From contig OV121084.1 in the NCBI GenBank assembly GCA_921293015.1, forward strand, positions 22,572,960 through 22,636,959: a stretch of DNA of 64,000 bases. The letters run 5' to 3'. This document shows, in pieces, positions 15,325-57,028 of the stretch. Source of the DNA: Phorcus lineatus (Eukaryota > Mollusca > Gastropoda > Trochida > Trochidae). The first letter of the stretch is position 1. Each line of letters opens with the position of its first letter. Both the position numbers and the translations under genes were made by a program. The notes beneath the pieces were generated by a model. The model did no database searches, had not been told where the DNA came from, and saw only the letters and a list, made by a program, of their open reading frames with translations.

Positions 15325-18300
15325 TATTAGTCAGTACAGACTGGCAGTGGGGGTATTTGCAGTCAGGCTTCATTCCTTTGCAGCTTGTAAGCTAAAATTT
15401 TACATGTTTCTTTTCCGACATCTTTGTATTTATAACTTATCTGTCAGTATCATTGTATCACTTCTTATACTATGTTGCGGAGACGTACAACCCAACCCTG
15501 GCCCAGTAGTAAATACGTTAAAGATAGTACACTTAAATGTTTGCAGTCTAAGAGAAAAAATCGACGTCTTAGAAGCTGAATTTAGTTCATATGATATAAT
15601 CTGTATTTCGGAAACGTGGTTACATATACACATTTCAAACAATGACATTCTCATACCAGGATTTCAACCTCCATTTCGTAAAGATCGTGGTAGCCGCGGG
15701 GGCGGAGTAGCTATTTATATCAAAGACAGTTTGCTTGCCGAGAACATGCCTCAATTGGACATAGCTGGACTTGAAGCTGTATGGGTTCGAGTAATATGTA
15801 AATATCGTACTTACCTGATCGGTACTTTCTATAGAGCTGACCGTAGTGTTGCTTATTGGGATTTAATTGACCAGTCAATTGGAAACGCTATCGATCTTAA
15901 CTTGTTCACTATTGTTTCCGGTGATTTTAATGAAGATGTTTTAAATGAAAGAAAGCGTAAAATTGAACTGCTAGAATCTGTTCATGGGCTAACTCAAATA
16001 ATAAATAAACCGATTCGAACCACCCCGCAATCAAGTACACTAATTGATCTTATATTTGTGTCCTCTTTTCAGAATGTACGCGATAGCGGGGTGTTAGATC
16101 CTGTTTGCAGTGACCATTGTCCGACCTATGTTGATATCAAATTCAATAGACCAAAGTGTAAAACCTTTAAACGTAAAATATATGATTATCAACAAATGGA
16201 CATTGATGGTATATTTTGGGATATAGATAACATTGATACTGAAGATATGTTCTCTAACAACAACGTGGATGATATTGCAAATAAGTTAACGACCACAATA
16301 AAGAATGCATGCAACAAGAATATTCCTAACAAAACTGTTACTATTCGACCATCAGATCCACTCTGGATGAACAATCAAATTCGATCATTGATACGTTCAC
16401 GTAATAGACATCATAAACAAGCTAAGTTAAAAAATTCAGCTACCTGTTGGACTCGATTTCGTCAAAGTAGAAATAAAGTTATTTCAGCAGTCAGATCGGC
16501 AAAAAGAGAGTATACGAATAAACTAGACAAAATGATTAATCAATCAACTTCTGACAAAAATTGGTGGAAATTAGTTAATAATCATATGAAGAGAAATAAA
16601 AACACGTTTACGTTTCCTCCTCTAATCCATGATAATGTAGTCAGTGATGACTTACAAGACATAACTGAAACTTTAAATGATTATTTCACTCGGCAATCGC
16701 AAGTAGAAAATCCCGATTCACAACCCTCTAATATCAAACAAAAGTCAGTTAACAGTCTATCGGAAATTATCCTTGATAACAGCGAAGTATACGACGTATT
16801 AATGTTTGTTAACACTACAAAAGCTTCCGGCCCAGATGGAATAGGTAATAGAATCCTGAAATTAATCGCGCGCAGTATTTCCCCCGTTTTAACACGACTC
16901 TTAAATTTTTCACTTCAACGAATGACATTTCCGGCATCGTGGAAAGAGGCAAATGTTGTGCCAATTCATAAAAAGGGTAGTGTCAATGACTGTTCAAACT
17001 ACCGACCAGTTGCCCTTACAAGTTGCGTAGCTAAAATATTTGAGCGATGTATCTTTAAACATGTTTTTAATTATCTAAGAGATAATGATATCTTATCCAA
17101 CTTACAATCTGGGTTTATACCTGGTGATTCGTGTGTTAATCAACTGACTTATTTGTATAATTTCATTGCGAAGGCAGTGGACGAAGGTAAGGAAATACGC
17201 GCTGTATTCTGCGATATTAGCAAAGCCTTTGATCGTGTGTGGCACAAAGGTCTCTTGCATAAATTAAATTCTTGTGGAATTAATGGCCCATTATTACAAT
17301 GGTTTAAAAGTTATTTAGAAAATAGATCCCAGCGTGTAGTCATAAATGGCTACAGCTCAAATGCAATGTCAGTAATGGCGGGCGTCCCGCAGGGCTCTGT
17401 TTTAGGACCACTTTTGTTTTTGGTTTACATAAATGATATTGTTGAAGGCATTGATAGCAACATAAGATTATTTGCCGATGATACTTCCATCTATGTAATA
17501 ATTGATGATCCTGACGCAGCAGCAAATTGTCTTAACAACGACTTGATAAAAATTGCCAATTGGGCAAAAACATGGAAAGTTGATTTTAACCCATCCAAAA
17601 CCAAAACAATCCTATTTAGTAGAAAATCTAATCAAAATCCACATCCAGGCTTGTTCTTTAATGACGTTGGAATAGAAGAAACTTCATGTCATAAACACTT
17701 AGGTATCACTCTTCAAACTAACTGTTCATGGGATAACCATATAGACGATATCGTTAAAAAGGTAAGCCCTATGATCAATTGTTTAAGAAGTTTTAAATAT
17801 AGGTTAAGCAGAAACACTTTAAATCGTATGTATACATCATTTATTCTTCCAATATTCGACTACTGTAGCCATATATATGATAATTGTTCCAAAACGCAGG
17901 CAAATATCTTGGAAAAACTTCAATTAGACGCTTTGCGGACGATATGCGGGGCTGTCCGCGGCACCAGTCATACTAAACTTTACAACGAAACCTCAACCAT
18001 TTCGCTTTCCGAAAGAAGAAGAATTGCAAAACTAGTTATTTTTTTTAAAATGTACAATAACAGATTACCCATCTATCTAAACGAACTCATCCCTCCCCTC
18101 GTCTCTCAAGCTAGCAGTTACCCATTAAGAAATGCATCGCATTTGCAAAATATACAATGCCGTACAGTTTTATATAAAAACTCATTTTTACCCGATTCTG
18201 TAACCCTTTGGAATGCTTTACCCGAACATGTTAAATCACTAACTAACGTCAATGATTTCAAATCTGCATTAATCTCAAAAACTAAGATTATTCACTTTGA

Positions 18301-18619
18301 TCTAAATTTAGGCTCGAGGCGTTGTCAAATCCTTCACTGTCGTCTGCGGTTGGAGTGTAGCGATCTCAATGCTGATAAGTTTAACAGACATATATTTGAC
18401 AAAGCAGATTGTTCTTGTGGCCATGCCACCGAGGACGCACTTCATTACTTTTTCGTCTGTTCAAAATTCGATCCAATTAGATCGAACAAATTCTATTATA
18501 CAAATGGCTTTTCATTAGAAACAATCTTATATGGCCACCCATCTTTGAACACTGTTACCCAATCTGAAATTCTAAAATCAGTACATCAATTTATAATTGA
18601 AACTAAACGTTTTGACTAA
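15314..18619 (+). CDS. ORF2 polyprotein of LINE E: 2A-like site, APE endonuclease, reverse transcriptase
   Basis: 1101 codons, uninterrupted. Residues 1-55 are largely hydrophobic and lead to G-D-V-Q-P-N-P-G-P at 56-64, a 2A-like motif. The APE-type endonuclease spans about 68-290, with S-E-T-W-L near 98, G-D-F-N at 203-206 and S-D-H-C-P at 266-270. RT motifs follow: G-P-D-G-I-G-N near 505, N-Y-R-P-V-A-L-T-S-C near 561, F-C-D-I-S-K-A-F-D near 632, G-V-P-Q-G-S-V-L near 690 and F-A-D-D at 720-723. The C-terminus has a C-x-C-G ... H-x4-C knuckle at about 1033-1049. There is no RNase H domain. By family the enzyme nicks target DNA and primes reverse transcription there. All visible catalytic residues are present. 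The start is fixed by the 11-nt overlap conserved in DG. Confidence 0.92.
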   Translation: MPVDISQYRLAVGVFAVRLHSFAACKLKFYMFLFRHLCIYNLSVSIIVSLLILCCGDVQPNPGPVVNTLKIVHLNVCSLREKIDVLEAEFSSYDIICISETWLHIHISNNDILIPGFQPPFRKDRGSRGGGVAIYIKDSLLAENMPQLDIAGLEAVWVRVICKYRTYLIGTFYRADRSVAYWDLIDQSIGNAIDLNLFTIVSGDFNEDVLNERKRKIELLESVHGLTQIINKPIRTTPQSSTLIDLIFVSSFQNVRDSGVLDPVCSDHCPTYVDIKFNRPKCKTFKRKIYDYQQMDIDGIFWDIDNIDTEDMFSNNNVDDIANKLTTTIKNACNKNIPNKTVTIRPSDPLWMNNQIRSLIRSRNRHHKQAKLKNSATCWTRFRQSRNKVISAVRSAKREYTNKLDKMINQSTSDKNWWKLVNNHMKRNKNTFTFPPLIHDNVVSDDLQDITETLNDYFTRQSQVENPDSQPSNIKQKSVNSLSEIILDNSEVYDVLMFVNTTKASGPDGIGNRILKLIARSISPVLTRLLNFSLQRMTFPASWKEANVVPIHKKGSVNDCSNYRPVALTSCVAKIFERCIFKHVFNYLRDNDILSNLQSGFIPGDSCVNQLTYLYNFIAKAVDEGKEIRAVFCDISKAFDRVWHKGLLHKLNSCGINGPLLQWFKSYLENRSQRVVINGYSSNAMSVMAGVPQGSVLGPLLFLVYINDIVEGIDSNIRLFADDTSIYVIIDDPDAAANCLNNDLIKIANWAKTWKVDFNPSKTKTILFSRKSNQNPHPGLFFNDVGIEETSCHKHLGITLQTNCSWDNHIDDIVKKVSPMINCLRSFKYRLSRNTLNRMYTSFILPIFDYCSHIYDNCSKTQANILEKLQLDALRTICGAVRGTSHTKLYNETSTISLSERRRIAKLVIFFKMYNNRLPIYLNELIPPLVSQASSYPLRNASHLQNIQCRTVLYKNSFLPDSVTLWNALPEHVKSLTNVNDFKSALISKTKIIHFDLNLGSRRCQILHCRLRLECSDLNADKFNRHIFDKADCSCGHATEDALHYFFVCSKFDPIRSNKFYYTNGFSLETILYGHPSLNTVTQSEILKSVHQFIIETKRFD
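15479..15505 (+). promoter_or_regulatory. 2A-like ribosome-skipping motif coding site
   Basis: Encodes G-D-V-Q-P-N-P-G-P directly after a hydrophobic helix. Canonical 2A is D-(V/I)-E-x-N-P-G-P; here E is replaced by Q (H in DG) and P precedes N. If functional, translation would skip between Gly63 and Pro64, separating a hydrophobic peptide of about 63 residues from the endonuclease-RT. The non-canonical residue makes activity uncertain. Confidence 0.6.
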
Positions 18620-21732: not shown

Positions 21733-21777
21733 AAATACAACTCACAACATACCTAATCCTAGTTTTCTCTGAACATA

Positions 21778-24700
21778 ATGGCAAACTTTACAGTACTCCA
21801 ACAAAACGTAAATGGGCTGGGCACCAATGGTGCTGAACTCAAGGTATTGATACAAAACAAAGTTATAGAACCAAGTGTAATCCTTCTACAGGAAACAAAA
21901 TTATCTAAAAGAAGGGATTATAAAATCCCAGGATATAACATACTAAGAAAGGATCGTTATACGGATATAAGAAAAACCCCACAAGGTGGACTAATAATTG
22001 CCGTAAAACATGGTATTGATTACAAACCCTTAGACATAAACATTGAAGGCATAGAAACTAATGGCGTAACAATAAACATTTATGGTAATAAACCAACTAA
22101 TGTTATCAATGTCTATTTACCCCAGAGCACAAAAATAACAGTTGAATTACTCAACAAATTACAACCCTATCTCGCAAATTCAGCCTATCTGGGAGGCGAT
22201 TTTAATGCACACAATCGTACCTGGGAGGCAGACGATAGAACCGATACGAGAGGTACAGTCATACAAAAATGGTTAGAGGATAACAAACTTATTGTTCTCA
22301 ACAATGGCGAACCTACTTTTCACAGGCTAACACAAGGTATATATACGACAATAGATCTTAGCATTATTACACCGGACCTAGTTAATGATGCTAGTTTATA
22401 TGTTCATGACGACAGTTGGGGAAGCGATCACTTCCCACTATTCACCACATTAAAAAATGACAATACACAACACACACACAATAACAATATCCATAACAGC
22501 TGGAATTTTAACAAAGCAAATTGGGAAATATTTCAAAATATTTGTGAGCAAAACTTAAACGATGATGTAAAAGATGAAGATGTTAACATATACAACAAAA
22601 ATATCACCGAGGTAATCATAAATGCTGCTAACATAGCCATTCCAACCAAAATAACTCACAAGCATATACCTGTACCATGGTGGAATGAAGAAATAATGCA
22701 AGCAAGAAAAGAAAGAAAACTGCTCAGAAAAAAAGCTAAAATGGATAAGAAGTTAATACAACAAGCGGCAGCAGCTAGAAATAAGGTTAAAACTTTAATA
22801 AGTAATGCAAAATTCCAATCATGGAAAAAAATGTGTAGCACATTTGATATTAAATCGAACTCAAGGCATGTCTGGAAGAAGATTAATGTCTTTAGAGGCA
22901 AAAACACTAAATCGCATATTCCAAGTATCAACAACAGCAAAAATAAACAGGAAAAAATCGACAATTTATGCAAACAATTCTCACAAGCAAGCTCAACCAA
23001 TAATTACAAAACTGCTTTTCAAGATAAAGTAAAGAATACACAACCCTGTCCGAAGGACAAAAACAAGCCAAACTTATGGTGTAATAAGCCATTCACAATA
23101 TCAGAACTCAACAATATTGTAAATAATAAAAAAGGAACATCATCTGGTATTGATCAAACCAGTTACACAATGTTTAAACATCTTCCTTATAAATGTAAAC
23201 AAAAGTTATTAGATTTCTACAATAAGTTATGGAAAGACGGTAAACTACCAACAGACTGGAAAGAAAGTCTTATCATACCATTACACAAACAAGGAAAAGA
23301 CCCTACCAAATCCGATTCATATAGACCAGTCTCCTTAACATCTCATCTATGTAAAACACTTGAAGCTATGGCAACAAAAAGATTACAACATTATCTAGAA
23401 ACCAACAAATTGATAACACAAAATCAATCAGGATATAGAAAATCCTATAGCACCACTGACCATATCGTTAGATTACAACACTCCATCAGACAAGCTCAAC
23501 AAAATAATAAATTCACTACAGCAGTCTTCCTAGACTTTAGTAAAGCATTTGATATGGTCTGGAAAACAGGCTTGATACACAAAGTTAAAGAAAAAGGCAT
23601 ACAAGGGGAAATGTTAAACTTTATAAATGACTTTATGTCTGACAGAACTTTTCGCCTTAAAGCAGATGACCAAATATCAGACAACTATAACCTAGAAAAT
23701 GGAACCCCGCAAGGAAGTATTATATCACCAACTTTGTTCAATATTATGATAGATGATCTATTTCACAAACTACCCAAACAAGTGGACACCTCACAATTCG
23801 CTGACGACGGAGCCCTCTGGGTCAGTCATAAACACCAGCACGTAGCAGCAGAAATATTACAAAAAGCCTTAATCAAAGTTAATGATTGGACCCAAAATTG
23901 GGGATTCCAATTATCAACAAGCAAAACTGTATCAATTCTCTTTCGGCCAACACCTAAAGCCGACTGCAGACCACTGAGATTATACATTAATGAAGAACTT
24001 TTAGATCAGGTTAAGTATGTCAAGTTCTTAGGCATAACCTTTGATGAATATCTAACATGGAATCAACATATTAATGAATTAACACAAAGATGCAAAAAAG
24101 ATCTTAATATATTACGAATGCTGTCTCACACTAGATGGGGCAGCAGCAAGGAAATGTTACTCATCCTATATAAATCTCTGATTAAATCCAAACTGCATTA
24201 TGGAGCAGAAGCTTGGGGTGACACCAGTCAAACCAACATACAAAAACTAAAAACCATACAAAATCAAGCCTACCGATACATATCAGGATGCCTAAGCGGC
24301 ACATCAATGGAACTAGTCAGACATGAACTAGGGGAACTACCGCTAGAAAAAGATTGGGAAGATAATATAACAAACTATATTGTTAGATCACAACATAAAC
24401 CATGTATACAAAATATTATCACACGAAAAAAGCATATAATGTCAAAAAGAGTAAAAAAAATACCAACACCATTTGGTGTTACCATTAAAAAACATATAGA
24501 GAAATATGAACTTGATACATTAGATATTACCTCTGACCCATATACCAATCATATTTTAAAACCTCCAGACCTACCCGATATCCAAGTAGATATCAAATTG
24601 AAAGACTATATAGATAAAAACAATCCAAAACCTAACGACCTCAGTAGCACTCAAGCCTACATTGAGGAAAACTACAATCAAACTGATTACCTTCAAATCT

Positions 24701-25530
24701 TTACTGACGGTTCTAAAGACGAAAAAGGAAGAGTAGGGTCTGGGATAGCCTTCACTCACACAGGTGATGGAGATATATCACTTAAATTACCAGACAAAAC
24801 ATCTATCTTCACAGCTGAACTTGTAGCTATTCGACAAGCACTCAATCTGAGCAAAGGTTACAAAAACAGAAATATAGCTATATTTACAGATTCACTCAGC
24901 TCACTGCAAGCTTTACAAAGCAAAACAGAAAAAAATAGTCATGAACTTCTACATCAAATTTATCACGGGTACAATTATCTAATTAAGGATAACAATAATG
25001 TTAAATTTATATGGGTGCCATCCCATATTGGTCTAATTGGCAATGAAAGAGCCGACCGAGCAGCAAAAGCAGGTCTAACCCACAGTAATAAGGTAAACAT
25101 GCCATATACTAAAAGGGAAATTAAAAGCATTGTTAAAGCAAAAACTACGGACGAATACAACAATAACTTTAAAAGCATCTGGGGACATACCCAGTACTAT
25201 CAAGTTCAACCCACAAAACTGAAAAAAGTTAAGAACTTTCACAACTTTAGAAGGGTTGATGTAGCCTTAACTAGACTAAGACTTAACAATGTTTGTAACG
25301 GGGTTTATCTCCACAAAATAGGGAGAGCACCAAATAATCTATGTCCACAATGTAATGTCAAAGACACCATACATCACATTCTGTTTCAATGTGACAAATA
25401 CCAAAAACACAGGGGACAACTCCTGAAAAATGTAAGCGCTAACACCCCACAAGAACTGTTAGCCAATACCAAAAATTACCAGTACCTTACAATATTCCTA
25501 CTACAAACTAAGTTATATAAAACATTATAA
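21778..25530 (+). CDS. ORF2 of LINE N: APE endonuclease, RT and RNase H
   Basis: 1250 codons, uninterrupted, ATG at 21778. The N-terminal APE endonuclease contains Q-N-V-N-G, L-L-Q-E-T-K-L, G-G-D-F-N-A-H-N and S-D-H-F-P. RT motifs are S-S-G-I-D, Y-R-P-V-S-L-T-S, F-L-D-F-S-K-A-F-D, N-G-T-P-Q-G-S-I-I-S-P and F-A-D-D-G-A at about 674-679. RNase H follows, with I-F-T-D-G-S-K-D (catalytic Asp near 977), T-A-E-L (Glu near 1018), I-F-T-D-S-L-S-S and N-E-R-A-D-R-A-A (near 1090). A C-x2-C ... H-H-x3-C knuckle sits near 1188-1204. All visible catalytic residues are present, so the protein could be active, although the copy is truncated at the 5' end and split in its 3' UTR. Confidence 0.92.
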   Translation: MANFTVLQQNVNGLGTNGAELKVLIQNKVIEPSVILLQETKLSKRRDYKIPGYNILRKDRYTDIRKTPQGGLIIAVKHGIDYKPLDINIEGIETNGVTINIYGNKPTNVINVYLPQSTKITVELLNKLQPYLANSAYLGGDFNAHNRTWEADDRTDTRGTVIQKWLEDNKLIVLNNGEPTFHRLTQGIYTTIDLSIITPDLVNDASLYVHDDSWGSDHFPLFTTLKNDNTQHTHNNNIHNSWNFNKANWEIFQNICEQNLNDDVKDEDVNIYNKNITEVIINAANIAIPTKITHKHIPVPWWNEEIMQARKERKLLRKKAKMDKKLIQQAAAARNKVKTLISNAKFQSWKKMCSTFDIKSNSRHVWKKINVFRGKNTKSHIPSINNSKNKQEKIDNLCKQFSQASSTNNYKTAFQDKVKNTQPCPKDKNKPNLWCNKPFTISELNNIVNNKKGTSSGIDQTSYTMFKHLPYKCKQKLLDFYNKLWKDGKLPTDWKESLIIPLHKQGKDPTKSDSYRPVSLTSHLCKTLEAMATKRLQHYLETNKLITQNQSGYRKSYSTTDHIVRLQHSIRQAQQNNKFTTAVFLDFSKAFDMVWKTGLIHKVKEKGIQGEMLNFINDFMSDRTFRLKADDQISDNYNLENGTPQGSIISPTLFNIMIDDLFHKLPKQVDTSQFADDGALWVSHKHQHVAAEILQKALIKVNDWTQNWGFQLSTSKTVSILFRPTPKADCRPLRLYINEELLDQVKYVKFLGITFDEYLTWNQHINELTQRCKKDLNILRMLSHTRWGSSKEMLLILYKSLIKSKLHYGAEAWGDTSQTNIQKLKTIQNQAYRYISGCLSGTSMELVRHELGELPLEKDWEDNITNYIVRSQHKPCIQNIITRKKHIMSKRVKKIPTPFGVTIKKHIEKYELDTLDITSDPYTNHILKPPDLPDIQVDIKLKDYIDKNNPKPNDLSSTQAYIEENYNQTDYLQIFTDGSKDEKGRVGSGIAFTHTGDGDISLKLPDKTSIFTAELVAIRQALNLSKGYKNRNIAIFTDSLSSLQALQSKTEKNSHELLHQIYHGYNYLIKDNNNVKFIWVPSHIGLIGNERADRAAKAGLTHSNKVNMPYTKREIKSIVKAKTTDEYNNNFKSIWGHTQYYQVQPTKLKKVKNFHNFRRVDVALTRLRLNNVCNGVYLHKIGRAPNNLCPQCNVKDTIHHILFQCDKYQKHRGQLLKNVSANTPQELLANTKNYQYLTIFLLQTKLYKTL

Positions 25531-25797
25531 TTAATAACCACCTCGCCTTACACCCAAACTCCTAACCACCTACCCATCCCATATTCTCATACCCAATTAA
25601 ACAATCACCTAACCGTAACAACCACCCCCCCAGGTAAAAGCTCCCAGAAGGACCTACGTTAGCGAGACTGATCTCTGAAACCTCCTTCTCTTGGTAAGTG
25701 TGGTCATGGCGACCTGCGACCAGAGCTGGGGGTGAGATGGGTTCACGAGATACACAACGGGACCTCTCGCGCAAGCCTATACAAACTGGCACGTAGG
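25531..25797 (+). other. 3' UTR of LINE N, first part
   Basis: Follows the ORF2 stop and runs to the 10-bp duplication GGCACGTAGG (25788-25797) at the left edge of transposon a. C-rich and without an ORF. Confidence 0.7.
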
Positions 25798-25980
25798 GGA
25801 GCAGGACAAATGCCACCCGGACAAATGCCACCCGGACATAATCCACCCGGACAATTGCCACCAGGACAAATGCCACCTAGGACAAATGCCACCTAGGACA
25901 AATGCCACCTAGTTTTTTTTAATATTACAAGACAAAAATAAAGTTATGTTTTTAATATTACATGAAGCAATATATACCTT

Positions 25981-26535
25981 TGATTTAAACATATTTTATT
26001 CATGAAATAATACATGAACGAATTGGTCAACAAGCTCCGAAGAGCTTATATTAAGGCCGCTCCAATGCAATTTCATATATACAGATATACAAACAGATGT
26101 AAGATATACGTCAAATCATAATTCAAATTCAAAGATATATACAGAGATAACGCATTTCTACCAATTTCTACCAATTTGGCAGTCATTATTTTAAAGTGTT
26201 ATTGGGGAATTTTAAATCGATCGGATTTAGTGATATAATTATGAATAGACTTTAATAATAAAGTTTGTTCATTGATTGTGAGCAATGCACATCCCCGTAG
26301 TTCCGTATTGATAGAAAATCCTTTCGAAAAGAAGAATGATTGATTTCTTAAGTGTATATACTTTTGGCATATGGAAAAATAGTGTACTGCATTTTCGGTC
26401 GGGTGACCGCATGAGCATGCAGGGCTGTCAATGATATATCTGTTAAATTTTGGCATTCAAATCACTACAATGAAGCCTGAGGCGAGAATGAATAATCTGA
26501 CAAATTCTTGACCCAAAATTAAGAAAGGAAACATA
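25981..26535 (-). mobile_element. LINE M, 3' fragment inside transposon a
   Basis: Minus strand shows the GTTTAAAC family's C-terminus: N-F-G-S-R-I-C-Q-I-I-H-S-R-L-R-L, a frameshift, then C-S-C-G ... H-Y-F-S-I-C and K-S-D-R-F (open part 26456-26199). The 3' UTR reaches the AATAAAATATGTTTAAA terminus at 25981. 5'-truncated; the target duplication is unclear. Confidence 0.75.
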
Positions 26536-27611
26536 TCAATGTAGATACTTACAAATACCGTAAAAAATGTGTTCCTTATAACGTCACGATTGCCATGTAT
26601 ATCAAGTATTAGTAAATCTAGTAAACTTATATCTTGCGTGTTCGCTATCATCCTAATTGTATGATGATACAGCACTATCTTCAATGAATAAGAGAATAAA
26701 CAATAATAAGAATGATGTTCGTTATAAATGCCCTCATCCATACATCTCATGTATGTATTTTTAAGATTATTGAAAAATAATAAATTTATATTCTTTGAAT
26801 ACACAGAAATGAACGTAACTAAAATAACTTTCAATGAGTGTCCAAATAGAAGCAAAGTTGCAAATCCGTCTGCTTGGCAACAGCAGTTGTTTTTAAGGAT
26901 CAAACCAAAAGTCACCATGACCTTAAAAATCAACCTCCAATCACAATTAACCAATTATGATTTTGTATATTAGGAGTAACAATCTACACAATATACCCTC
27001 ATCTTGCAATATACGAGTCTGCAAATCGACAAAACTGTCATATCGATGCAAATATTGACATATGTAAACCACATCATTGTTTTATGGCTTTCATTTGTGT
27101 TTCATAATGATCCTTATTTTCAAATTTCCAAAATTTAGTTATGTGGTAAATATAATATTGAATACAATAGCCAAACCAAATATTGTTTCTATGCATTAGT
27201 GAAGAATAGAAAAAAGTATTAGCAAATTGAACTATTTTAAAAATAGATCAAACCAGAACAGAGGAGCCAAGTCCACAGAACTATCAACAACATTGTTAAC
27301 AAAAGTAGGAGGTGTTTTATACCAGCCAAACCAAGTGTATGGCGTCACTACATCTAAAGATTACTAGTATATCTCTGAATGTTATGTCATTTAGTTTGAT
27401 TATAAGGGGTTAGCACTTCCTTAAAAGAACTATTAGATATATATATATTGAACATGGAATCAACCGAAGTTGTAGATTAATTTTAGTTATTGAGATAAAC
27501 TCAGTTTTAATTTTTAGTGAGATTGAGAAAAAGAACAGTTCTGTGTTTCATATATTATGTTCAACTAGTAATTTCATGAATATTCTCTTTTTTTCTTCTT
27601 TTTTTAAGATA
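26536..27611. other. Body of transposon a, non-coding
   Basis: AT-rich, with no ORF that resembles a transposase or host protein on either strand. Short frames in this interval are unconvincing. Confidence 0.5.
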
Positions 27612-27768
27612 TTGGGTGGCATTTGTCCTAGGTGGCTTTTGTCTGGGTGGCATTTGTCCTAGGTGGCATTTGTCCTAGGTGGCATTTGTCCTGGTGGCAA
27701 TTGTCCGGGTGGGTTATGTCCGGGTGGCATTTGTCCGGGTGGCATTTGTCCTAGACCCGGCACGTAGG

Positions 27769-28671
27769 CTCCCAACGGGAGATTTCCACCAATCACCTCA
27801 AATACCATTTATCACACCCGTTTGGGATAACTGGTAGGACTTGGGCAAAGGGCAGACTGGTTAAAACTTCATTAAAAGTGCACGGTGTGACTACCCCCGG
27901 CGCTTCACTTAATTGTATCTGGTAATTGTTACGGCACCGAAACTCCATAACCCTCACTGCCTGGTTCTGAACCTGGTTTAGTGGGGAGGACAGGTATGGT
28001 ACCATAAGTGTATGGCATGACCACTTAGATGGCCTACTAGAAAGAAAAAACGCACATTGCGAAGACCACAACGATGGAAACAACAGCGGATAACGGACTA
28101 AGTATATCAAACAAAAAAAGATAAGTATTACTCCATTCATCCACTTATCAATAAACTTAAATATAAAACATAAATAAATAAATAATTACAATTAACTATA
28201 AATACAATTTCATCACAACTATTTAACAACAGCTTCATGTTATAACAATTAAATATTCCATTACAAATACTATTCTTAAATTTTATCAAATATTCCTTAA
28301 ATTGTAAGAGTAATAAAATAAAATAATATTCCCCATACACCATAGGTTTCTATCTCTTTCAGGTATGACGCCATCTCACGGCACTCAACAAATTTAATTC
28401 CAATTTATCTTTACCGCCACCCCCACCCCATCCCCCCCACCCCCAACTTCACCCAACCTTCACCCCCAACCCTTCACTTTATTCAAAATTCAAAATTTTT
28501 TTCTTTACCACTTTAGAACTTTTATTAACTTTATTTGGGTGTCTATGACCTATTCTAAATCTTATTCCCCCATTCATTGCAAATAACTAAGGCATAGGCC
28601 CCACGTCGGCGACATCACCCAATGGTGGAAGCAGACGTGAAACTTCAACCCAACAACAACATCAACTATAA
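27769..28671 (+). other. 3' UTR of LINE N, second part
   Basis: Resumes after the right duplication of transposon a. Contains a C-rich tract (28420-28475) and an ACCACTTTAGAACTTTTATT block comparable to fragment Q's 3' UTR near 41460, and ends in a CAAC/ATC-rich tail. No ORF. Confidence 0.55.
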
Positions 28672-29870
28672 CGGAGCATTGCGCTCAGCAGGATAGACAG
28701 TCACTATGAGTCGGCGGCACACATATATACTGATGGATCGAAAGATCCTGTGAGAAACAGAACAGCCTATGGCATCCAAATCAGCTCACAGTATACATCC
28801 GATAAAACAAAGATCTCAAACCGCCTACCAAATGGACAGTCAAATATACACTGCCGAGCTGGAATCTATACACCATGCACTGAGACTAGCTGAAGGTCTC
28901 AGGGACAAACGGGTAGCCGTATTTATCGACTCCCTGAGTTCACTGCAGTCACTGGCCTCTAAATACTCACGCAGTAGACCAGACACACTCCGACAGATCT
29001 TAGAGCAAATTCAAAAGCTCGAAAGATCATTTGGCAAAGAGATTGAACTGTGCTGGATTCCATCTCACGTGGATATTCCAGGCAATGAACGGGCAGATAG
29101 ATTAGCACGTGAGGCACTAGAGTTAGAACACATCTTGGACTACCCTTACTCCTCCAGCGAGGTAAATAGTATGATAAGAAGTTCTATCTTGAAAAAATGG
29201 CAATCTAGGTGGGATAATGGCCCGAGCGGCCGCTAGTATCATAGTCTCTGTCCCAGTGTGAATAGGCCCAAGTGCATTATTCGCAACAAACAAGTAGACA
29301 GAATGATTACCAGACTAAGACTCGGTGCTACTAAAACCTCCTATAAAGACTGTCGAAATTGTGCCACACGTGCATCTGTCTCCCACTTATTGCTTGATTG
29401 CCAGCTGTTCGGCGCAGCAAGGCAAACACTCAGGGAAGAAGTTGGCGAAAATACACTCACAGCGAAGCTACTGCTGTCACACTCTCAAGAGTCACGAGTG
29501 TATAAGCCCTTAGCCAACTTTCTCCTAGAAAGTGATACACATCAGTATATATGAAGAAATGACATCAAGTGCCGCCTGGTCTTGGAAGGGACCGTTTATA
29601 AGAACCGAATCTGGGGACAGAAAAAGCCTCCCAAGTGATTAGCCTACTTTATAGGGTACGTCACCTAAATGATCAGCCCTCAGTTAGGAAAACAGAAAAA
29701 ACATGCAACATGCTATCCAGTGCGACAAACGTTGACGTTTTCTCAACTTCTTCGGGTAGTGTCAAGAATTATCGGACCTCTCGTCCATTGAATAGACCCA
29801 TATGACACTTGAAACACAGTGCTTAAAAGTGCTTGTTATTGTAAATAAATTTGTTGAAAAACTCCATGCT
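28672..29870 (+). pseudogene. LINE O: RNase H and C-terminal region of an I-group LINE
   Basis: 5'-truncated. Reads H-I-Y-T-D-G-S-K-D-P near 28724-28752, shifts frame, then Y-T-A-E-L-E-S-I-H-H-A-L, V-F-I-D-S-L-S-S-L-Q-S-L, W-I-P-S-H-V-D-I-P-G-N-E-R-A-D-R (RNase H motifs, 28769-29236), stops, and continues R-L-R-L-G-A-T-K-T and C-R-N-C ... S-H-L-L-L-D-C (29258-29554). The 3' UTR has AATAAA near 29846. The disrupted frames mark it as dead. Distinct from N in sequence. Confidence 0.75.
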
Positions 29871-31098
29871 TGTTATGTGGTATTTTATTACGTTTCAGTC
29901 TACAAATATTAAAATAATTACCATTTTAGTAAACACAAACAATATTACACATTAACACAATTAACACAATAAAAGGAAACGACAGCTTAAATCAGGTTAG
30001 TTACAAATATTTTTGCTAGTCTATGAATTTATCATTATATGTTTAATAGAGATAAGTTAGATCTAATATTATAAATATAAAATATCTTTAGCATTATTCC
30101 ATCGTTTAAGATTTGGTGATCAAGTCGCCAATTTGAAATCTTAAATATAATCAACCTCTAAACATAGTAACAGTTAATCATTGTATAAATAGTAATGCTA
30201 AACCATTTCTTTCTTTTACTTTCTCAATGCCGCTTATGGCTGAAATATTGCCCAAGCGGCGTTAAACAATAACTCACTCACACTCTTTTACTTTCTCTGT
30301 AAGAACGATGCATGAACGTGCATCGGTTAGTTTCGTTCGTATATGGGAGTTTTACTTACAGATTAAGAGCGTTGGCTTGTATTGATGTAAGGTTACTTAT
30401 GAACAATTCCTTTGAATGTTATGTCCGCAATTAGTTAATGATATCTTTATTCAATTAACGGATGTTCTTAGGATGTCAGTGAGTCCTTGGCGACCATACA
30501 TAACACAGGGTAAGGTATTTCAAATAAGAATAATGTTTGATATATTATTTAAATAGGTTTTTTGTTCACGTTCAGTGATAATCAAGTGTAATCAAACGTA
30601 ATCTATCAATTATCATTGTAATTCCTAATTGGAGTTATTGGTTTGATTACTTATCAGTTTCACATGAAGCCTGAAATGTATTTGCATAACATGTAATTAT
30701 GATGCTAGTGTATATGTATCATCCCAACTGCGTATACGTCCCAACTTGGAATCCCAAGGGGGATACTAAAACATGTTAATAATATTCATATTTTATTATG
30801 AATTATGTCAGTAAAACATGCTTTAAGATAATTTTGTTATATTCTTTTCACATCTACGAAGAAAATTTGATTTGATGTTCATTTACTTCACTTTCTGACT
30901 CGGTTTCATGTGTTATCGAGTACGAACAATTCAACACTACTCAAACAATTATTTAAAGTCACATATGATGACTGATTGAATCACATTTGTTAAGCGACAT
31001 AACAAAATCAGATCAATATATAGATTTATATTTAGATAGTAGTTTTCAGCATTTTTCAAACCAATACATGCGTAGATCGAACAGCTGTAAACAGAGAG
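29871..31098. other. No gene recognised
   Basis: AT-rich DNA. Apart from the SINE-like tail at 30228-30296, I see no coding region or RNA gene on either strand. Confidence 0.5.
30228..30296 (+). mobile_element. SINE 3'-tail fragment
   Basis: AATGCCGCTTATGGCTGAAATATTG ... AGCGGCGTTAAACAATAACTCACTCACAC (described in parts) matches the style of the tail seen in reverse at 44842-44880, GCGGCATTAAACACCAACTCACC. Only the 3' end remains. Confidence 0.55.
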
Positions 31099-32194
31099 AA
31101 ACCAAACGGCCTCATTTGCAAACTTGAATCGTATGGAATACGAGGTAAATTATTAAATTGGTTCCAGAGCTATCTAGAAAATCGAGTGCAACGAGTTGTA
31201 ATAAATGGGTGTAAATCTGATTGCCGATATGTTTCTGCCGGAGTACCCCAGGGATCTGTTCTCGGCCCCCTGCTATTTATAATTCATATAAATGAGATCG
31301 TAAATGACATTGAGAGCAATATTCGTCTTTTCGCAGACGACACATCACTCTATATCATTGTTGAAAATCAAAATAAAGCCGCCCAAGTTCTAAACACTGA
31401 TCTTAAGAGAATAAACGATTGGGCAGAATCCTGGCAAGTTTCCTTCAATCCAACCAAGACTGAATCAATGATATTCTCCCGTAAACTAAATAAGGATTCT
31501 CACCCAGATTTGCTCATGAACGATACAGTCATTAAAGAAGTTGATAGTCACAAACATTTAGGTTTAACTATGCAAGCTAACTGTAATTGGCAAGAGCATA
31601 TAAATGAGATTGTAATGAAAGTGTCACCAATGATAAATTGCCTAAGAAGTTTGAAATATAAACTATCAAGAAAAACATTACAAACAATGTATAGACATTT
31701 TATTTTGCCTCAATTTGATTATTGTTCAGTCATCTGGGACAACTGTACTCAAGACCAGGCTATGATTTTGGAAAACCTACATCTGGACGCGTTACGTACG
31801 ATATGTTGGGCTGTTCGTGGCACTAGTCACAGTAAATTATACATTGAAACGCAATCCATACCGCTATCAGAGAGACGTTATCAGCAACGACTGTCACTTT
31901 TCTACAAAATGGTAAATAATCTAACACCGACTTATCTAAATGATCTTGTGCCGCCCACATTAGGTGAAGCAACACATCGGGTTTTCAGAGATGCAAGTAA
32001 ACTTAAAACTTTGAGTTGCGGACATCTCATTATAAAAAGACTTTCATACCAAGAACCATTGTCGATTGGAATTCTATTCCGCCGGAAAAAAGAAATGATA
32101 AAAACATGATGAATAACAAAGCCGGCTTATCTCAGCACAATGATATCTACTTTGACTTAAATCAAGGCTCTAGAACCTCTCAAATAAACGGGAT

Positions 32195-33847
32195 GCGGTG
32201 ATTTCGTAGACAAAACCATTTCGTAGACACGAAATCCGGTGAATTCGTAGACAAATCGAGCAGTGAATTCGTAGACAAGTTTTAAAATAGGATTATAAGA
32301 AATAATAACAAACTTTTATTTATCAAACTCAAGGATTCGAACACTTATAGGTTCGATTAAAGAAATCAAGTGAATAAAAACTATAAATAGTCTATTTTGT
32401 TGTGTTTTGACACGATTAAAGTAGGCCTAATCCAATATTTATGTGTTGTTTTCGATTCTTTTAGTTCTTGTTTGATCTTTTAATAAAATAGATTAAGGTA
32501 AGTATGATTATATTTATCAACAACTACGCAATCAACACCAGCACAGAGACGAGAAGACATCCGGGAATATGAAAGACGGTAAGTCACTGACAATCAAAAC
32601 AAATAGCGCGGCTATTATAGCAAATCCACTTGCATGAGTAGAGACTCAAACGTACCTGTCAAAACACATATACAGTATATAAACCACAAGTTTGAAATTA
32701 TAATTCATTCATGATATCATATATTATTTACAATTGACTTACTCGTGTCTGTTATTATTTCTGATGCTTCGTCATCTTCAATATCTGAAAGAAATTTAAT
32801 CTTTAATCATTATGAAAATAATAATAATATAACATAATAATAGTCTACGTCAAAACTCGTTAGTTTCGTATCTATTCTTCGTACAGCTAATAACATTCTA
32901 CGTAAAGCTAGCAACATTCTCGTAATCAATATTCACACAACAAGTTATGAATTACTATAAAAGATAATAATAATTAAAAATAATCGTCAATAGTGACTTA
33001 GAAATACAAATTTAATACTGTCTACGAAATCACTGTCTACGAAATGGTTTTGTCTACGAAATCCCCGTGTCTACGAAATGGTTTTGTCGTTGGCCCCGCT
33101 AACAGAGTCCCCTATGTATAGACTATTGACAGGGTAATTCACCCGCCATCTTCGATCTAAAAAATCTAATTTTACGCTATTGTCGACTCAAATTGCATTA
33201 TGTAGTAATAGAACACATTCCCAGAGATACTCCGCCGCTAACCTTTCCTTCGTACTTATCGTTTTATTCCTGCTTTTAATCTTTCTTTCGCGAAGCGGTC
33301 AGGTCACATTTACCTTACCCGGAAGTTTACAATGGCTGCCGACATGGCCGCAGCCAACACGCTTCTTGAACCTCATTGGTTGATTAGTAGAAGCCATAAA
33401 CACTTGATTAAGCGAGGGAAATTCAAAATTTGTTCGCATGACATTTTTAACACGTGAGAGATAACAACAATGTCAGAAGTCAACTTAACTCAGTGGTAAT
33501 ATTTTTTTAAAGACATTAATTTTACAATAACTCGTCATAAACAATAACTGGTCGACCGCCATTGACAACTTCCGGGTGGGGTAAATGTAACCAGGCTCGC
33601 TTCGCGAAAATTAAGTCAGAAATAGGCATTATTAAAAAAAAATTAAGGTAAGATTAGCGGCGGAGTATCAAAGGATATGTCCGATCATTTTGTGATATAC
33701 TTTTAGTTTTTATTTGCGTTTAAAGAGCATTTTACACGCTAGAGTTCGAAGATGGCGGGTGAATTACCCTGTCAATAGTCTATAGGCCTACATAGGGGAC
33801 TCTGATAGCGGGGCCCATGGGTTTTGTCTACGAAATCACTGAAACCA
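32195..33847. mobile_element. Transposon 'c': DNA element with TTTCGTAGACA-array termini
   Basis: Left arm (about 32195-32283) has four units of TTCGTAGACAAA type, with opposite orientation at the right (33017-33091, four units, plus a last one at 33824-33840 beyond the nested MITE). GTGATTTCGTAGACAAAACC opens the left arm and its complement closes the right. The flanks share only AAAC; the LINE K codons on both sides are collinear, so the insertion is certain even though the duplication is not. The interior (32284-33016) has two donor-like sites (GGTAAGTATGATT, ACGGTAAGTCAC) shared with the partial copy at 20227-20685, and no coding ORF. Confidence 0.7.
33092..33815. mobile_element. Foldback MITE, 724 bp, nested in transposon c's right terminus
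   Basis: Starts GGCCCCGCTAACAGAGTCCC and ends in the inverse, GGGACTCTGATAGCGGGGCC. The inverted repeat includes the TAGACTATTGACAGGGTAAT block and GCCATCTTCGA, and continues inward as a second paired block (ATACTCCGCCGCTAA, TTCGCGAAGCG, CCCGGAAGTT), so most of the element can fold on itself. No coding capacity. It separates two parts of transposon c's right arm. Confidence 0.8.
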
Positions 33848-34985
33848 TAGCCGTCTGAGACTCCAATGCTCAAATCTAAACTCCCACAAGTTCCTAAGGC
33901 ATATCTCCGAAACTCCCGAATGTTCATGCGGTCACTTATATGAAGACCCTGAACATTTCTTTTTCATTTGCAGAAATTTTTATTGGCCTTAGAAACAGTA
34001 TGTATTTCTACACTCGTGGGTATGACATTAAATCTATCATGTTTGGAAATCATACACTACAGCAAGAACAAACTGGCAGATTTGGTAAACATTAAATTAG
34101 ATCGATTATTGTTCTTAAATGAGTGATCTTGTTAAACACCATTTTTGTAATTGTAACTTATGTACGGAATGTGCTTATCTCCATGATGTTATCATTCGCA
34201 AGTTATTTTTGTATTCTGATGAGGACACGCATTTAAATAAGCCTCCGGCTTGTTTGCTTGTCCTAATGGTTTAAACATATTTATTTCAAAAAGATGAATT
34301 GGATTGGTAAACAAGCCATAGGCTTATGTAAATACCGCTCCAAGATACAAATATGATACATGTCATGTTGATTTTACAATATACTATATACAGAAACAAC
34401 AGTTCATTATAATTACAACAAACGCAATGATTGCAGAAAATTGAGTGCTAATCTGTTTTTACAAACGCCAAAAGGTCATTACCAATGCAAGTAATACAGA
34501 ACATTGAAATATAATCAATCAATAAGTCATTTTGCAAATCTGCCTGTTAAAGTTATAAATTCGTGCACTGATGTTAAAAGTTCCATATTTTCGGTAGCGG
34601 AACAATTTATGTTTCCGAACAAAACTGATTTTACATCAAAACCTCTATGAAAGTAAAACATGTTGTGTCTTATAGTGCTGTAAAGAGGACATATGAAGAA
34701 AAAGTGAGTTGAATCCTCATAACAATGGCCACAAGCACAGACGGGCGATTGTGATATGAATCTTTCATACTTGTGTGCATTTAAGTCGCTGCATTCAAGT
34801 CTTAGACGAGTATGTATGATTTGACAAAATCTGCTGCCATAGCCTAGTCGAAATGGCCACACTGAAAAAATGGCCACAGATTGAAAAGTCAAAATGGCCA
34901 AAAAAAGGTCAAAAGACCACACACCCCAGTCAAAATGGCCATATGAAAAAGTCAAAATGGCCAAAGAAAAAGTCAAAATGGCCAT

Positions 34986-36160
34986 ACATTTCTCAAAATA
35001 AAAAAAATCTCATTAGATACTTTATTTAACAATCATCATAGATATATTAAAAACAATAATCTTCATCTTTTTGCATGGTTTGCAATGATAGTATATGACT
35101 GTGTAAAGAATTATTTAGTTTATTCATTACATTCAATATTTACATTATTGATTTCTCTTGTTAGGTGTGGGCCTGAAAACTTACATTACTTTGAGTTGAC
35201 TGTAGTGTTTTCTTACTGTAATGAATGACTTTGTTGATACTTTGTTTGGTACTGTTTTTTGTATTTTTGGATAACATATTTTCATTTGATAAAGTTCCTC
35301 ATTTCACAAATGAAGAGAGGATATCCTTTACCAATTGTTCACCATGAAATCATCTGGATTTTATCATTCACTCTGGTTTGACAAATAAAGTTCAAAGTAA
35401 TTTGAGCCAAATTAACAATCAAATGATGGAATCACTTCTGAAAATAAGGGCATTCTCCAAAGCCAGGAGCTAGCTACTCTAAGGCTCAAGTAAACTAGTA
35501 ACTGTCCAGACATCTGTTAACTACAATTGTCCAGTATAATCTTTGTGATGGTCAGTCTGTGTACTCATTTAAACCTGGTCATCTCAGGCCACTGACCACT
35601 GAGTATAACACAGTCTTCACATTCTTTGTCCTTAGATGTAAAGCTTGAGAGCATTGAATGATTGGATAGAATGTCTGGAAGATCTTTGATAGTTGAAGGA
35701 TTAGAAGTTTCATAAACATACTTATTGCAATGAATGCAACATCATGGAGTAGACTTGGGTAGTGATTTAAAGTGTGTTGGAGCCGGCAGGGATATGTCAT
35801 GTAAACAATGTACATGAGTTTTCTGAGACAAGGTGTCATCAACATGATAACTGCAAGATGATAAATCATTTGTCAGAAATTTTCTTTTTCTTTTTACCCA
35901 TCTTGAACTGTTCCTTTTACACAGTAAAAGCTATGTTCTAATGTCATTATGAGATTGGTGTCAGTGCTAGTTAGGTATCAATCAGTCAAGAGCATAAAAA
36001 AGAAATGCAAAGGCTCTTCAGAAGTTTGAAGCCGGTAGAGGGGATCAGTTTGGTATGCCCAGTGATGGTCTGTGTACTTGAGTCCATGTCAAAGGTCAAA
36101 CCACTGGCCACTACAGATGGGCCACTACAGCATGGGCACAAAGTCTGTCAGTGATGAGTT
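34986..36160. other. Body of transposon b, no gene recognised
   Basis: Between the left terminus and the last exon of the MULE-related gene. A 96-codon minus frame at 35579-35869 has no recognisable motif and is probably chance. Confidence 0.4.
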
Positions 36161-37218
36161 TCATTCTGTGGGTCCAGTCAGTTCCGAACAGATGCGCAGA
36201 AGCTCGTTGGGGCTGAGTTTGCCATCCTTGTACAGTCGCCACGTTGCGAAGACTTCCTCCTGGTTTCTGGTGGCTTTGGTTAGGGTGTACTTTCTCAGCT
36301 TTCCGTCGTGGAGGAGTCTGCTGTGGATTTCCACCTGACGTGCCTCTTTGTGAAGGGCTTCCACCAGCTTGTACAGGCCAAGTGTTCTTTCCGAGTTTCT
36401 TGAGTTGATGCGCCTGTTCCATCCTACAAGAGAAGTTATAAAATTATAAATGTGTTTTATAAATGTACATATCATATAAATGTGCATATCATTATCATAT
36501 ATTAGGTAATATTATTATTATATCGACGTACCCTCAACATGGTTGTTGGTCCTAATGGTCTTGTTGAATACCGACCAGCTGGCGACAGGGAAGGTGGTGC
36601 TGCCAATCCACTGCTTCTGGATAATAATATATATAATATATAATATCGTAATATTTTTATATGTATTTACTTAATATTTTTATATGTATTTACTTAATAT
36701 TATTATATGTATTTACTTAATATTATTATATGTATTTACTTAATATTATTATATGTATTTACTTAATATTTATATATAAATTAATACCTTAACGACATAA
36801 GTATATCCACTAGACTCCATCAGCAGTGGTTTTCCCTTCTGGGATCCGGTCTTGAGTACAGTGAACTGTACAGGGGTATCATCTTCACTGTCAAAAGCAT
36901 CTTCGTTGATGGAAAGTTCCATAGACATTCTATGACATCTTCAACGCCACCACACTCGGCATGTAGATTGGAGGTGTCAATCTCATCTACACTTTCCAGA
37001 GTAATGGAAAACCTTCCAACTTCTACTTGGATGGAGGAGTTAGAGCATCTGTAGCAAGTGAAGGGAAAGTCATCTCCGCTTTCAACAAGCCTCAGATAGT
37101 CTGATTTAGATACACCGGTATCGCAGGTTCGATGTGTCCAACAATGGCACTCATCACACTCAATAGCATGTTGGTTTTTCCTTACAGTTTTGGCACACTT
37201 CAAACACTTAACAGCCAT
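36161..37218 (-). pseudogene. PHD/FLYWCH/MULE-derived gene in transposon b (three exons)
   Basis: Exon 1 (37218-36788) starts with a PHD-type finger (C-L-K-C ... C-D-E-C-H-C-W-T-H-R-T-C ... C-Y-R-C). A frame change occurs near 36925, then comes the first half of a FLYWCH domain (Q-F-T-V-L-K-T-G-S-Q-K-G-K-P-L-L-M ... G-Y-T-Y-V-V-K), ending at AAG|GTATTA. Exon 2 (36616-36532, acceptor ATCCAG, donor GTACGT) encodes W-S-V-F-N-K-T-I-R-T-N-N-H-V-E-G. Exon 3 (36423-36161, acceptor TTGTAG) continues in frame as W-N-R-R-I-N-S. R-T-N-N-x-V-E-G-W is the C-terminal signature of FLYWCH-associated MULE transposases. The second half of FLYWCH and the whole transposase core are absent, and exon 1 needs two frames, so this is a deletion derivative. 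Confidence 0.6.
36655..36775. repeat. 23-bp tandem repeat, about five copies
   Basis: ATGTATTTACTTAATATT plus a short T/A linker repeats every 23 bp (starts at 36661, 36684, 36707, 36730 and 36753). It lies in the intron between exons 1 and 2 of the gene in transposon b. Confidence 0.85.
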
Positions 37219-37498
37219 GTTAGATGGGGAAGTGATACCAAATAATTTTCTAACCTGTATTATATAGTGTACCTCATGATATCATGAGTGGACATTGAGT
37301 TGACATTGAGTCAAGTCAATTAATATTATTATCCTTTTAATCCAAGTCAAGTAATATTATTATAATTTTCATCCTTTTAATCTCAGTTGGTTAATCTAAA
37401 ACAACAACAATTAGTTGAGACACCATCCCATGATCAGGGGTGTTATAATAACATCTTTATTAGTAACAGGTCTTTATTTGTCTAAAATAACATGGCAG
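37219..37498. other. Upstream region of the gene in transposon b
   Basis: Between the exon 1 ATG and the right terminal array. Contains a TTAATATTATTAT direct repeat (37319-37379); no ORF. Confidence 0.4.
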
Positions 37499-38775
37499 TG
37501 AGATATATGGCCATTTTGACTTATTCTTTGGCCATTTTGACTTTTTCATATGGCCATTTTGACTGGGGGTTGTGGCCATTTTGACTTTTTTCTTTGGCCA
37601 TTTTGACTGGGGACAGTGTGGCCATTTTGTCGTGTGGCCTTTTTGACCTGTTCCCAAAGTTACTGTATGTTTCATTATCATGGAGGAGAGCATTTTTGAA
37701 AGTCAATAAAGATGGCGAATTTCTATGTTCTATCGGTAATGAGTTCCAAAGTTTAACAGCGTCAGGAAGGAAAGATCTCGCATAGTTTACAGATTTACAA
37801 TCTAAAGTCTGGAGTTTCGAATCATCACGAAGATTGTAATCAACGATATCCGATATTTTGGGAGGTACCAAGTTGCTTAGATAGCTGGGTGTATTGTGAT
37901 TTACCATTTTATAGAACAACGTCATTTTATGAACGTATCGTCTATGACATAATGGTTTGCACTTTGTTTCTTTATAAATCTTATGATGGCTGGTACCCCG
38001 AACGGCACCACAGACGGTTCTAAGTGCATCAAGATTAAGTTTTTCAAGCATATCAGCTTGGTGCTTTGTACAATTATCCCATATATGACAACAGTAGTCG
38101 AATACAGGTAGAATGAACTGTTTATACATGGTTTCCAACGTTTTCCGGTTTAATCGATATTTGAGGCTTCTAAGACAATTTATCATCGGGGTTACCTTTT
38201 TAACAATGTCTTGAATTTGATTGCTCCAAGAACAATCATGTTGGAATATAAGGCTTAGGTGTTTATGGCTCTGTACTGATTCAATAACATTGTCATTCAT
38301 GGTTAGATCTGGCATCTGAAATGGTTGTACTTTGCGGGTAAAACGAATCGATTCTGTCTTATTCGGATTGAATGATACTTGCCATTTTTCTGCCCATTCC
38401 GCAATTCGCTTCAAGTCGTCATTTATGTCTATGGCTGTTTCGTAGGGGTCATCAATAATCGCGTATAAAGATGTATCATCCGCAAAAAGACGTATATTAC
38501 TGTTAATACCCTCAACTATATCATTTATGTATACAATAAATAGGAGTGGTCCTAAAACTGAACCCTGGGGTACACCTGCAAAGACAGTTTTTTTTATCAG
38601 ACTGAAATCCATTGATTACAACACATTGTTTTCTATTGTCAAGATAACTCTCAAACCATTTTAATAAGTCACCCTGTATACCATATCTTTGTAATTTATG
38701 TATAATGCCTTTATGCCAAACTTTGTCCTAATTCATGTACCATTAACATGAATAAATATGTTTAAACCAAACGGC

Positions 38776-50895: not shown

Positions 50896-51002
50896 TCTCA
50901 TATAAATATCTAAAAGTATATCGTTAATCACATTTCATGATAACATTTTATGCTCAGGGGGCTCTCAGTAAGTAGCAGCAGTTGAGGATAGAGAGGGAAT
51001 TG

Positions 51003-56882: not shown

Positions 56883-57028
56883 GTACTTGTGTATGAGTAG
56901 CCAGAATGTTGGACTAACTTGGAAACGTTGGGTAACTACCAAAACCCAACCCTCGAGGGTCATATTGGTTTCACTGTCTTCGTAGGCTCGCTTCAGAAGG
57001 CTGTCAAGTACCATTACAGTTACTTGAT

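Follow-up and report, generated by a model that had tools for sequence, protein, structure and literature searches.

Inverted arrays of short tandem units at the ends of probable non-autonomous Mutator-like elements in Phorcus lineatus

A 64,000-nucleotide stretch of the Phorcus lineatus genome (G000:C7:22572960-22636959, hereafter the window) carries three elements, here called a, b and c, whose inverted ends are built from short sequence units in tandem. What kind of element has ends of this build, and do the three belong together? An earlier note, made from the letters alone, had proposed MULE-type DNA transposons that evolve as one lineage by exchanging their terminal repeats. We examined the window and searched the genome (958 Mb in 74 contigs) for copies and relatives. 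Our analysis indicates that a, b and c are very probably non-autonomous Mutator-like elements (MULEs) of the cut-and-paste type with the build of type 2 Foldback elements, whose arrays would be bound by a transposase zinc finger and which would be mobilized in trans. They are new families of an already published design and do not form a new group.

Arrays were detected in the window with Tandem Repeats Finder (TRF) and an inverted-repeat search, in which the longest inverted array pair was that of a (110 nt, 98% complementary, 1730 nt between the arms). Element a spans 1962 bp (25797-27758) and is non-autonomous. Its left array (25804-25909, + strand) comprises seven units of GGACAAATGCCACC with 1-2 bp spacers, and its right array (27615-27751, - strand) nine inverted units. 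Element b (34843-37655) has six units of GTCAAAATGGCCA on the left (34847-34984, + strand) and seven inverted units on the right (37508-37647, - strand); all four arrays were delimited by TRF and are read inward. Element c (32190 to about 33846), also non-autonomous, has four units of TTTCGTAGACA in its left array (32202-32277, + strand, read inward) and four inverted units in its right array (33019-33078, - strand), with one further unit (33825-33835) past a nested element, d, that splits c. Inverted ends of tandem short units were therefore found in all three elements, as proposed. The range 25788-37652, which had been assigned to the three together, does hold a, b and c, but as three separate insertions with other sequence between them.

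The ordered unit variants that had been described are borne out in a. In the window copy, the third unit from the tip inward is GGACATAA(T/C)CCACC and the fourth is GGACAATTGCCACC on both sides, and this order recurs in the four further copies read (L040, L041, L044 and L046). Since the two sides and the other copies share this order of odd units, the array is inherited as part of the element end and not as an independent satellite. Array length does vary: L041 has one unit fewer on both sides, and L046 has one extra unit on the left. Element a looks young, since L040 is 99.6% identical to the window copy, with one gap and 5 differences over 1956 aligned positions. Another inverted array pair of a type stands right at the beginning of contig C1 (G000:C1:10-1084).

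The tips of the elements were set by copies found elsewhere in the genome. We scored the best 40 of 1252 candidates for a, the best 40 of 55 for b and the best 40 of 601 for c, and fetched 30 loci each for a and c. The matches are not a product of chance: an a dimer with at most three mismatches occurs at 448 genome places compared with 0 for the reversed pattern, the b end at 98 compared with 8, and the c end at 764 compared with 0. Across copies, the tips of a are GGGAGCA and GGGTCTA, each ahead of GGACAAATGCC; those of b are GGGTCCTA and GGGAACAG, followed by GTC(G/A)AAATGGCC; and those of c, for which both ends were present in 33 of 36 loci, are GGGATGCGGTGA and GGCTTGCAGTGA, each ahead of TTTCGTAGACA. 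GG opens all six tips and GGG five of them, and the next few bases are not the same at the left and right ends of an element. In the window, a retains both tips (the right one reversed), b has lost its left GGGT and ends on the right with GGGAACAGGTC, reversed, and c begins with GGGATGCGGTGATTTCGTAGACA and has an altered right tip.

Outside these tips we found target duplications. The window copy of a (locus L039) is flanked by an exact 9-bp repeat, GGCACGTAG (25788-25796 and 27759-27767); the 10 bp given for this duplication in the earlier note become 9 bp once the GGG common to the tips is counted as element. Nine loci of a were examined, and the four readable copies, including the window copy, all have an exact duplication of 8 or 9 bp. 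Eleven loci of b yielded nine readable copies, six of which have an exact duplication of 8 or 9 bp; two others, from one duplicated site, show one mismatch, and the last has no duplication. Among 36 loci of c, 28 of the 33 readable copies have an exact duplication, 8 bp long in 26 and 9 bp in 2, and since three of the 28 share one site, they represent 26 independent sites. As a control, the left flank of one copy was paired with the right flank of another, which gave matches in 0/12 (a), 0/72 (b) and 9/1056 (c) pairings. According to the printed flanks, the nine c matches fall among L092, L093, L094 and L096, which are copies of one site. The duplications of a, b and c (8-9 bp) lie within the length usual for MULEs (about 8-11 bp).

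The site just mentioned belongs to another dispersed repeat. Five c copies with the tips GGGATGCAG (L092-L096, on contigs C1 and C2) occupy the same site of this repeat, and their right flanks are 97% alike over 209-210 bp, which means that c has been carried along by a different repeat family.

The genome search with the arrays recovered MULE-bearing relatives for a and b, and met no second superfamily. For this comparison we used the best 150 scored of 521 first-look candidates for the MULE domain (Pfam PF10551), and array places for a, b and a fourth family, e. About the first 100 places each were used for the a dimer and for e (191 places), as were the 37 mismatch-free places out of 98 for b; overlapping units within one array were merged by hand. 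Family e, with the unit GGACAAAATCCCCAA, was first seen as an array behind the MULE domain of L106, and later in L042, where a small e element lies next to an a copy (L042:2945-4046). Inverted array pairs enclosed a PF10551 domain in 3 of the 20 listed pairs for a (shifted-domain control: mean 0.005, maximum 1), in 7 of 23 for e (mean 0, maximum 0) and in 1 of 12 for b (mean 0.005, maximum 1), counts that are lowered by unlisted partner arrays and by MULE domains outside the 150 scored. The seven e elements with a MULE domain (C2:42773117, C7:14070387, C7:14098057, C9:55383875, C12:33452161, C16:6325294 and C17:7684631) have 1.5-1.8 kb between their arrays. One a-type element, L109, the sole one whose N-terminal part was read, encodes a FLYWCH finger (PF04500, E = 1.1e-6, 29.1 bits, cut-off 23.6) that lies between the a arrays at C2:48397367 and C2:48401006, ahead of the MULE domain of that element.

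The relative of b is locus L070, whose 7.2 kb between b ends hold a PHD-like exon and a C-terminal exon as well as a MULE domain (E = 1.1e-11). Element b of the window appears to be a decayed derivative of such a PHD-type MULE. Its N-terminal zinc-finger exon (37078-37230, - strand) shares 98% identity with its L070 counterpart over 51 amino acids (aa), and its C-terminal exons (36161-36619, - strand) also match L070. The stretch 36521-36619 is 100% identical over 33 aa, and the open reading frame (ORF) 36161-36511, which matched no Pfam family, begins identically, letter for letter, to L070 from position 7537 on. The MULE-type exons attributed to b are thus present at both ends of the gene. 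In the window copy, which retains the first and last transposase parts only, no catalytic MULE domain was detected.

For c, pieces of a gene of the same type were found within c copies. The PHD exon of b matched in 7 of 36 c loci (41-50% identity, E = 1.1e-8 to 3.4e-11) and the MULE piece of b in two of them (E = 9e-6 and 5e-6). In L022, the c finger exceeds the Pfam cut-off (PF00628, 26.3 bits compared with 24, E = 7.4e-6), and in both L020 and L022 the PHD exon is directly followed by a further frame that, by eye, looks like the C-terminal residues of a MULE transposase. Across the genome, the c PHD piece has at least 106 matches, b copies included (best 150 of 155 candidates scored), and the c MULE piece has 13. 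One strand of contig C7 carries, in this order, a c end at 486126, the PHD piece at 483229 and the MULE piece at 477548. Within 401 bases behind this MULE piece (L110), the start of a MULE catalytic domain was recognized by eye against L070, with 19 of 34 residues equal to b by hand count. A MULE C-terminal match in the c locus L025 was discarded as a c gene piece because it lies outside the c element. The shared PHD-type gene indicates that b and c are related, contrary to the description of the three elements as unrelated.

Taken together, a catalytic domain was found between the ends of a, b and e, and gene pieces were found for c. The MULE domains within a and b pairs and the MULE gene pieces in c copies indicate that a, b and c are non-autonomous Mutator-like elements, and with the 8-9 bp duplications they agree with the MULE-type DNA transposons first proposed. 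They also led us to reject the idea that the elements belong to different superfamilies, as did the MULE domains within e pairs.

A different account of the ends is that the arrays are ordinary satellites that flank unrelated insertions by chance. Long one-directional arrays of this sort do exist in the genome: more than 50 a-like units stand in a row at L007/L008, one overlapping place (C25:10891620-10895133), and an e-like array with at least 11 dimer places lies at C11:19591753-19592002. The arrays of a, b and c, however, are paired in inverted orientation, with fixed tips bordered by target duplications; the order of the a variants is conserved, and MULE domains lie inside pairs of a, b and e. 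We therefore rejected the satellite account, above all because of the target duplications at the array-bearing ends, and its probability is next to nothing. The long one-directional arrays are perhaps satellites that grew from transposon ends, by analogy with what has been reported for Tetris.

Several observations weigh against reading a, b and c as Mutator-like elements. For b and c, no duplication can be read in the window, which we ascribe to the lost left GGGT of b and the altered right tip of c, and none was seen by eye in the a copy L040. Most listed array pairs contain none of the 150 scored MULE domains (17 of 20 for a, 16 of 23 for e and 11 of 12 for b); these mostly short pairs are as expected of non-autonomous copies. 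The PHD match of b is weak and below the Pfam cut-off, with 17.6 bits in L070 and E = 0.2 in the window, where it was the best of the weak zinc-finger matches that were all Pfam returned for four frames; this finger is 41-50% identical to that of c, which passes the cut-off. As for c, frame shifts interrupt the catalytic-domain stretch of L110, and no complete c element whose ends enclose an intact MULE gene is among the sequences read. Around the 100 c ends listed (of 764), no scored MULE domain was found within 15 kb, and the shortest distance to any of the 50 scored domains on the same contigs is 61 kb.

The last of these points, and the predominance of 8-bp duplications in c (26 of the 28 copies with an exact one), would also fit a c that belongs to another superfamily and resembles a and b in look only. 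Duplications of 8 bp are also usual for hAT or P elements. Such an origin is very improbable, given that c copies carry the PHD exon, the N-terminal MULE part and what looks by eye like the beginning of the catalytic domain, in gene order. Most likely c is a MULE whose gene is of the type seen in b.

How the Mutator-like ends of a, b and c might work can be proposed from their anatomy. Each end consists of a tip starting with GG(G), a few end-specific bases and a block of tandem units, with the two blocks inverted. Transposase would be supplied by related elements of the genome, to a by a FLYWCH-type MULE and to b and c by MULEs of the PHD type. Its zinc finger most likely binds the repeated unit, by analogy with Muta1 and other MULEs, so that the array would act as a row of binding sites that collects transposase at both ends. 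Several bound copies may then join the two ends, again as suggested for Muta1 and other MULEs, and the catalytic domain would cut at the tips and insert with an 8-9 bp stagger, producing the duplication. Short copies with arrays and no gene would be moved in trans, and array length presumably changes through recombination between units.

The earlier note knew of no named group with this feature, but Muta/Phantom, Tm1, Foldback and Rehavkus elements of comparable build have been described (PMC5225508, PMC3169594, PMC6446971). According to PMC5225508, Aedes aegypti has 14 MULE families with 8-9 bp duplications, of which 13 have a FLYWCH finger, and 10 of 12 families with long terminal inverted repeats (TIRs) have subterminal tandem repeats of 9-15 bp. 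Among them, Muta1 is a type 2 Foldback element with a short terminal motif and then a 12-bp subterminal repeat in nine copies, spaced by 3-4 bp. Many non-autonomous copies of Aedes MULEs have foreign interiors, and the Muta1 transposase in yeast moved natural non-autonomous copies that differed in TIR length (PMC5225508). Muta1 and the other Aedes MULEs thus resemble a, b and c in their 8-9 bp duplications and in having a terminal motif followed by a block of short repeats. The units differ, however, as does the Muta1 terminal motif, an imperfect palindrome, and the Aedes elements have FLYWCH where b and c have a PHD-type finger (PMC5225508). The FLYWCH finger typical of Phantom and Muta was found here in the one a-type element with its N-terminal part read, and the inverted ends of short tandem units typical of type 2 Foldback elements in a, b and c.

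Tm1 of Meloidogyne, a Mutator/Foldback element, has tandem 13-15 bp units in its inverted ends, asymmetric outer tip motifs, 8-10 bp duplications, a Phantom-type transposase and a motif rich in purines close to where the array ends on its inner side (PMC3169594). Its tandem units and asymmetric tips are like those of a, b and c, but both unit and host differ. Rehavkus, as described in PMC6446971, combines a PHD finger, a 9-bp duplication, a minisatellite and a MULE-like catalytic domain; arthropods and annelids are the hosts that this source gives. By description, Rehavkus is the closest named match for b and c. The PHD finger has its counterpart in c, b has a candidate finger that scores below the cut-off, and the duplications are 8 or 9 bp in b and mostly 8 bp in c; the Rehavkus minisatellite precedes the 3' TIR, whereas b and c have arrays at both ends. 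The same source reports FLYWCH in part of Phantom and an aphid Phantom element with a minisatellite after the gene (PMC6446971). Drosophila Foldback, Tetris and Galileo share the inverted ends of tandem repeats (PMC4079207). Tetris has 8-10 bp duplications but a unit of about 220 bp, unlike the short units here, and Galileo belongs to the P superfamily, unlike the Mutator-type a, b and c. Apart from some exceptions, foldback elements seem for the most part to belong to Mutator, and foldbacks of sea urchin are mentioned as well (PMC4079207). In the literature that we searched by terms of design, which did not include Repbase, no description of these particular units was found.

Whether the array-bearing MULEs of this genome have one origin is a separate question. 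Ten MULE places were hand-picked from the 150 scored, chosen for differing scores, and inspected for arrays over 1.2 kb on the 3' side. Three of them have an a- or e-type short-unit array there; of the seven others, L101 has its own array of 13 units of 21 bp, and L102 and L104 are one family (98% alike). An unrooted C-terminal tree (11 rows, 181 columns), made without L003, L005, L106 and c, separated two a rows, b and e from seven others with support of 99/98, with e as a long branch, b about 40% filled and c unplaceable; the program gave a long-branch warning for e and b. This split persisted without b, without e, without both or without the poor row n_L101 (98/97 to 100/100). The C-terminal stretch of b matched a and e loci only (L105, L108 and L042; tblastn, E 1e-3). 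We take the tree as a fair hint of one lineage, no more.

The units themselves were compared by shuffling. The a unit and its L105 variant were as alike as observed in 3 of 1000 shuffles, and these units grade into each other. Between families, the best results were e-b and a105-e with 9/1000 each (20 comparisons, uncorrected), and a-e (179/1000) and b-c (394/1000) were less alike. A core motif common to all units was considered and dropped, as these 20 uncorrected comparisons gave nothing firm. The swapping of terminal satellites envisaged previously is not borne out: the a and L105 units grade into each other, and likeness among the a, e, b and c units is at best weak.

Two histories can be set against these data. 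The first treats the array-bearing MULEs of this genome as one lineage in which arrays were kept while the repeat unit drifted or was replaced. The four array-bearing rows on one side of a split stable to row removal, the matches of the b C-terminal stretch, the close a and L105 units and the e-b and a105-e comparisons all point this way. Nevertheless, the sample is small, hand-picked and unrooted, so that either side could be the older stock; e, b and c are respectively long-branched, incomplete and unplaceable; the finger of a is FLYWCH and that of b and c PHD; and the other places were inspected over 1.2 kb on one side, where L101 proved to have an array too. Moreover, like arrays in Aedes, Meloidogyne and the Drosophila element Galileo, of another superfamily, make repeated origin likely overall (PMC5225508, PMC3169594, PMC4079207). 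A single lineage in this genome is accordingly a tentative proposition.

The second history has a and e on a FLYWCH (Phantom/Muta-like) branch and b and c on a PHD (Rehavkus-like) branch, with arrays built independently. The different N-terminal fingers of a compared with b and c, and the PHD exon that b and c have in common, are consistent with it, as is the description of Phantom with FLYWCH and of Rehavkus with PHD and a minisatellite (PMC6446971). Against it, the small trees keep b together with a and e, and the likeness to Rehavkus and Phantom is one of description. That the split held without the long rows, and that the C-terminal part of b also matched e, added weight to one lineage and took some from separate origins, which nonetheless come close to an even chance. 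A more specific form of the single-lineage history, in which a, b, e and probably c kept their design while finger (FLYWCH or PHD) and unit were exchanged in lock-and-key co-evolution, seems unlikely.

Further features of the window touch on these elements or lie beside them. The nested element d (33089-33819) is near-palindromic and 731 bp long, with inverted arms 71% alike over 267 bp, and is flanked by an exact 9-bp repeat, GGTTTTGTC (33080-33088 and 33820-33828); no short-unit array was noticed in it. A d copy in L027 is 97% alike over 685 bp, and there a c copy is inserted in the d-like element. Since d lies inside c in the window and c inside a d-like element in L027, the two nest in each other. 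Element a contains a fragment of a retrotransposon without long terminal repeats (non-LTR) from a C-terminal reading frame (26214-26523, - strand). In tblastn, the closing part of the window ORF 15314-18619 matches this fragment with 45.6% identity over 79 aa and 79% over 24 aa (E = 7.6e-26). By eye, many frames in 1-25530 resemble non-LTR retrotransposons, including two long open ones (15314-18619 and 21763-25530). Elsewhere, a 36-bp tandem repeat with 44 copies (51001-52598) is open in several frames on both strands, and 57022-57278 is a 127-bp tandem duplication, 99% matching.

These results place at least four families of tandem-array MULEs (a, b, c and e) in one animal genome, with a PHD-type finger in b and c. 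For annotation, inverted pairs of short-unit arrays with periods of about 15-22 bp can be read as MULE ends. Families a, b, c and e would also form a natural set in which to follow how the DNA-binding finger of a transposase and its repeated target unit change together.

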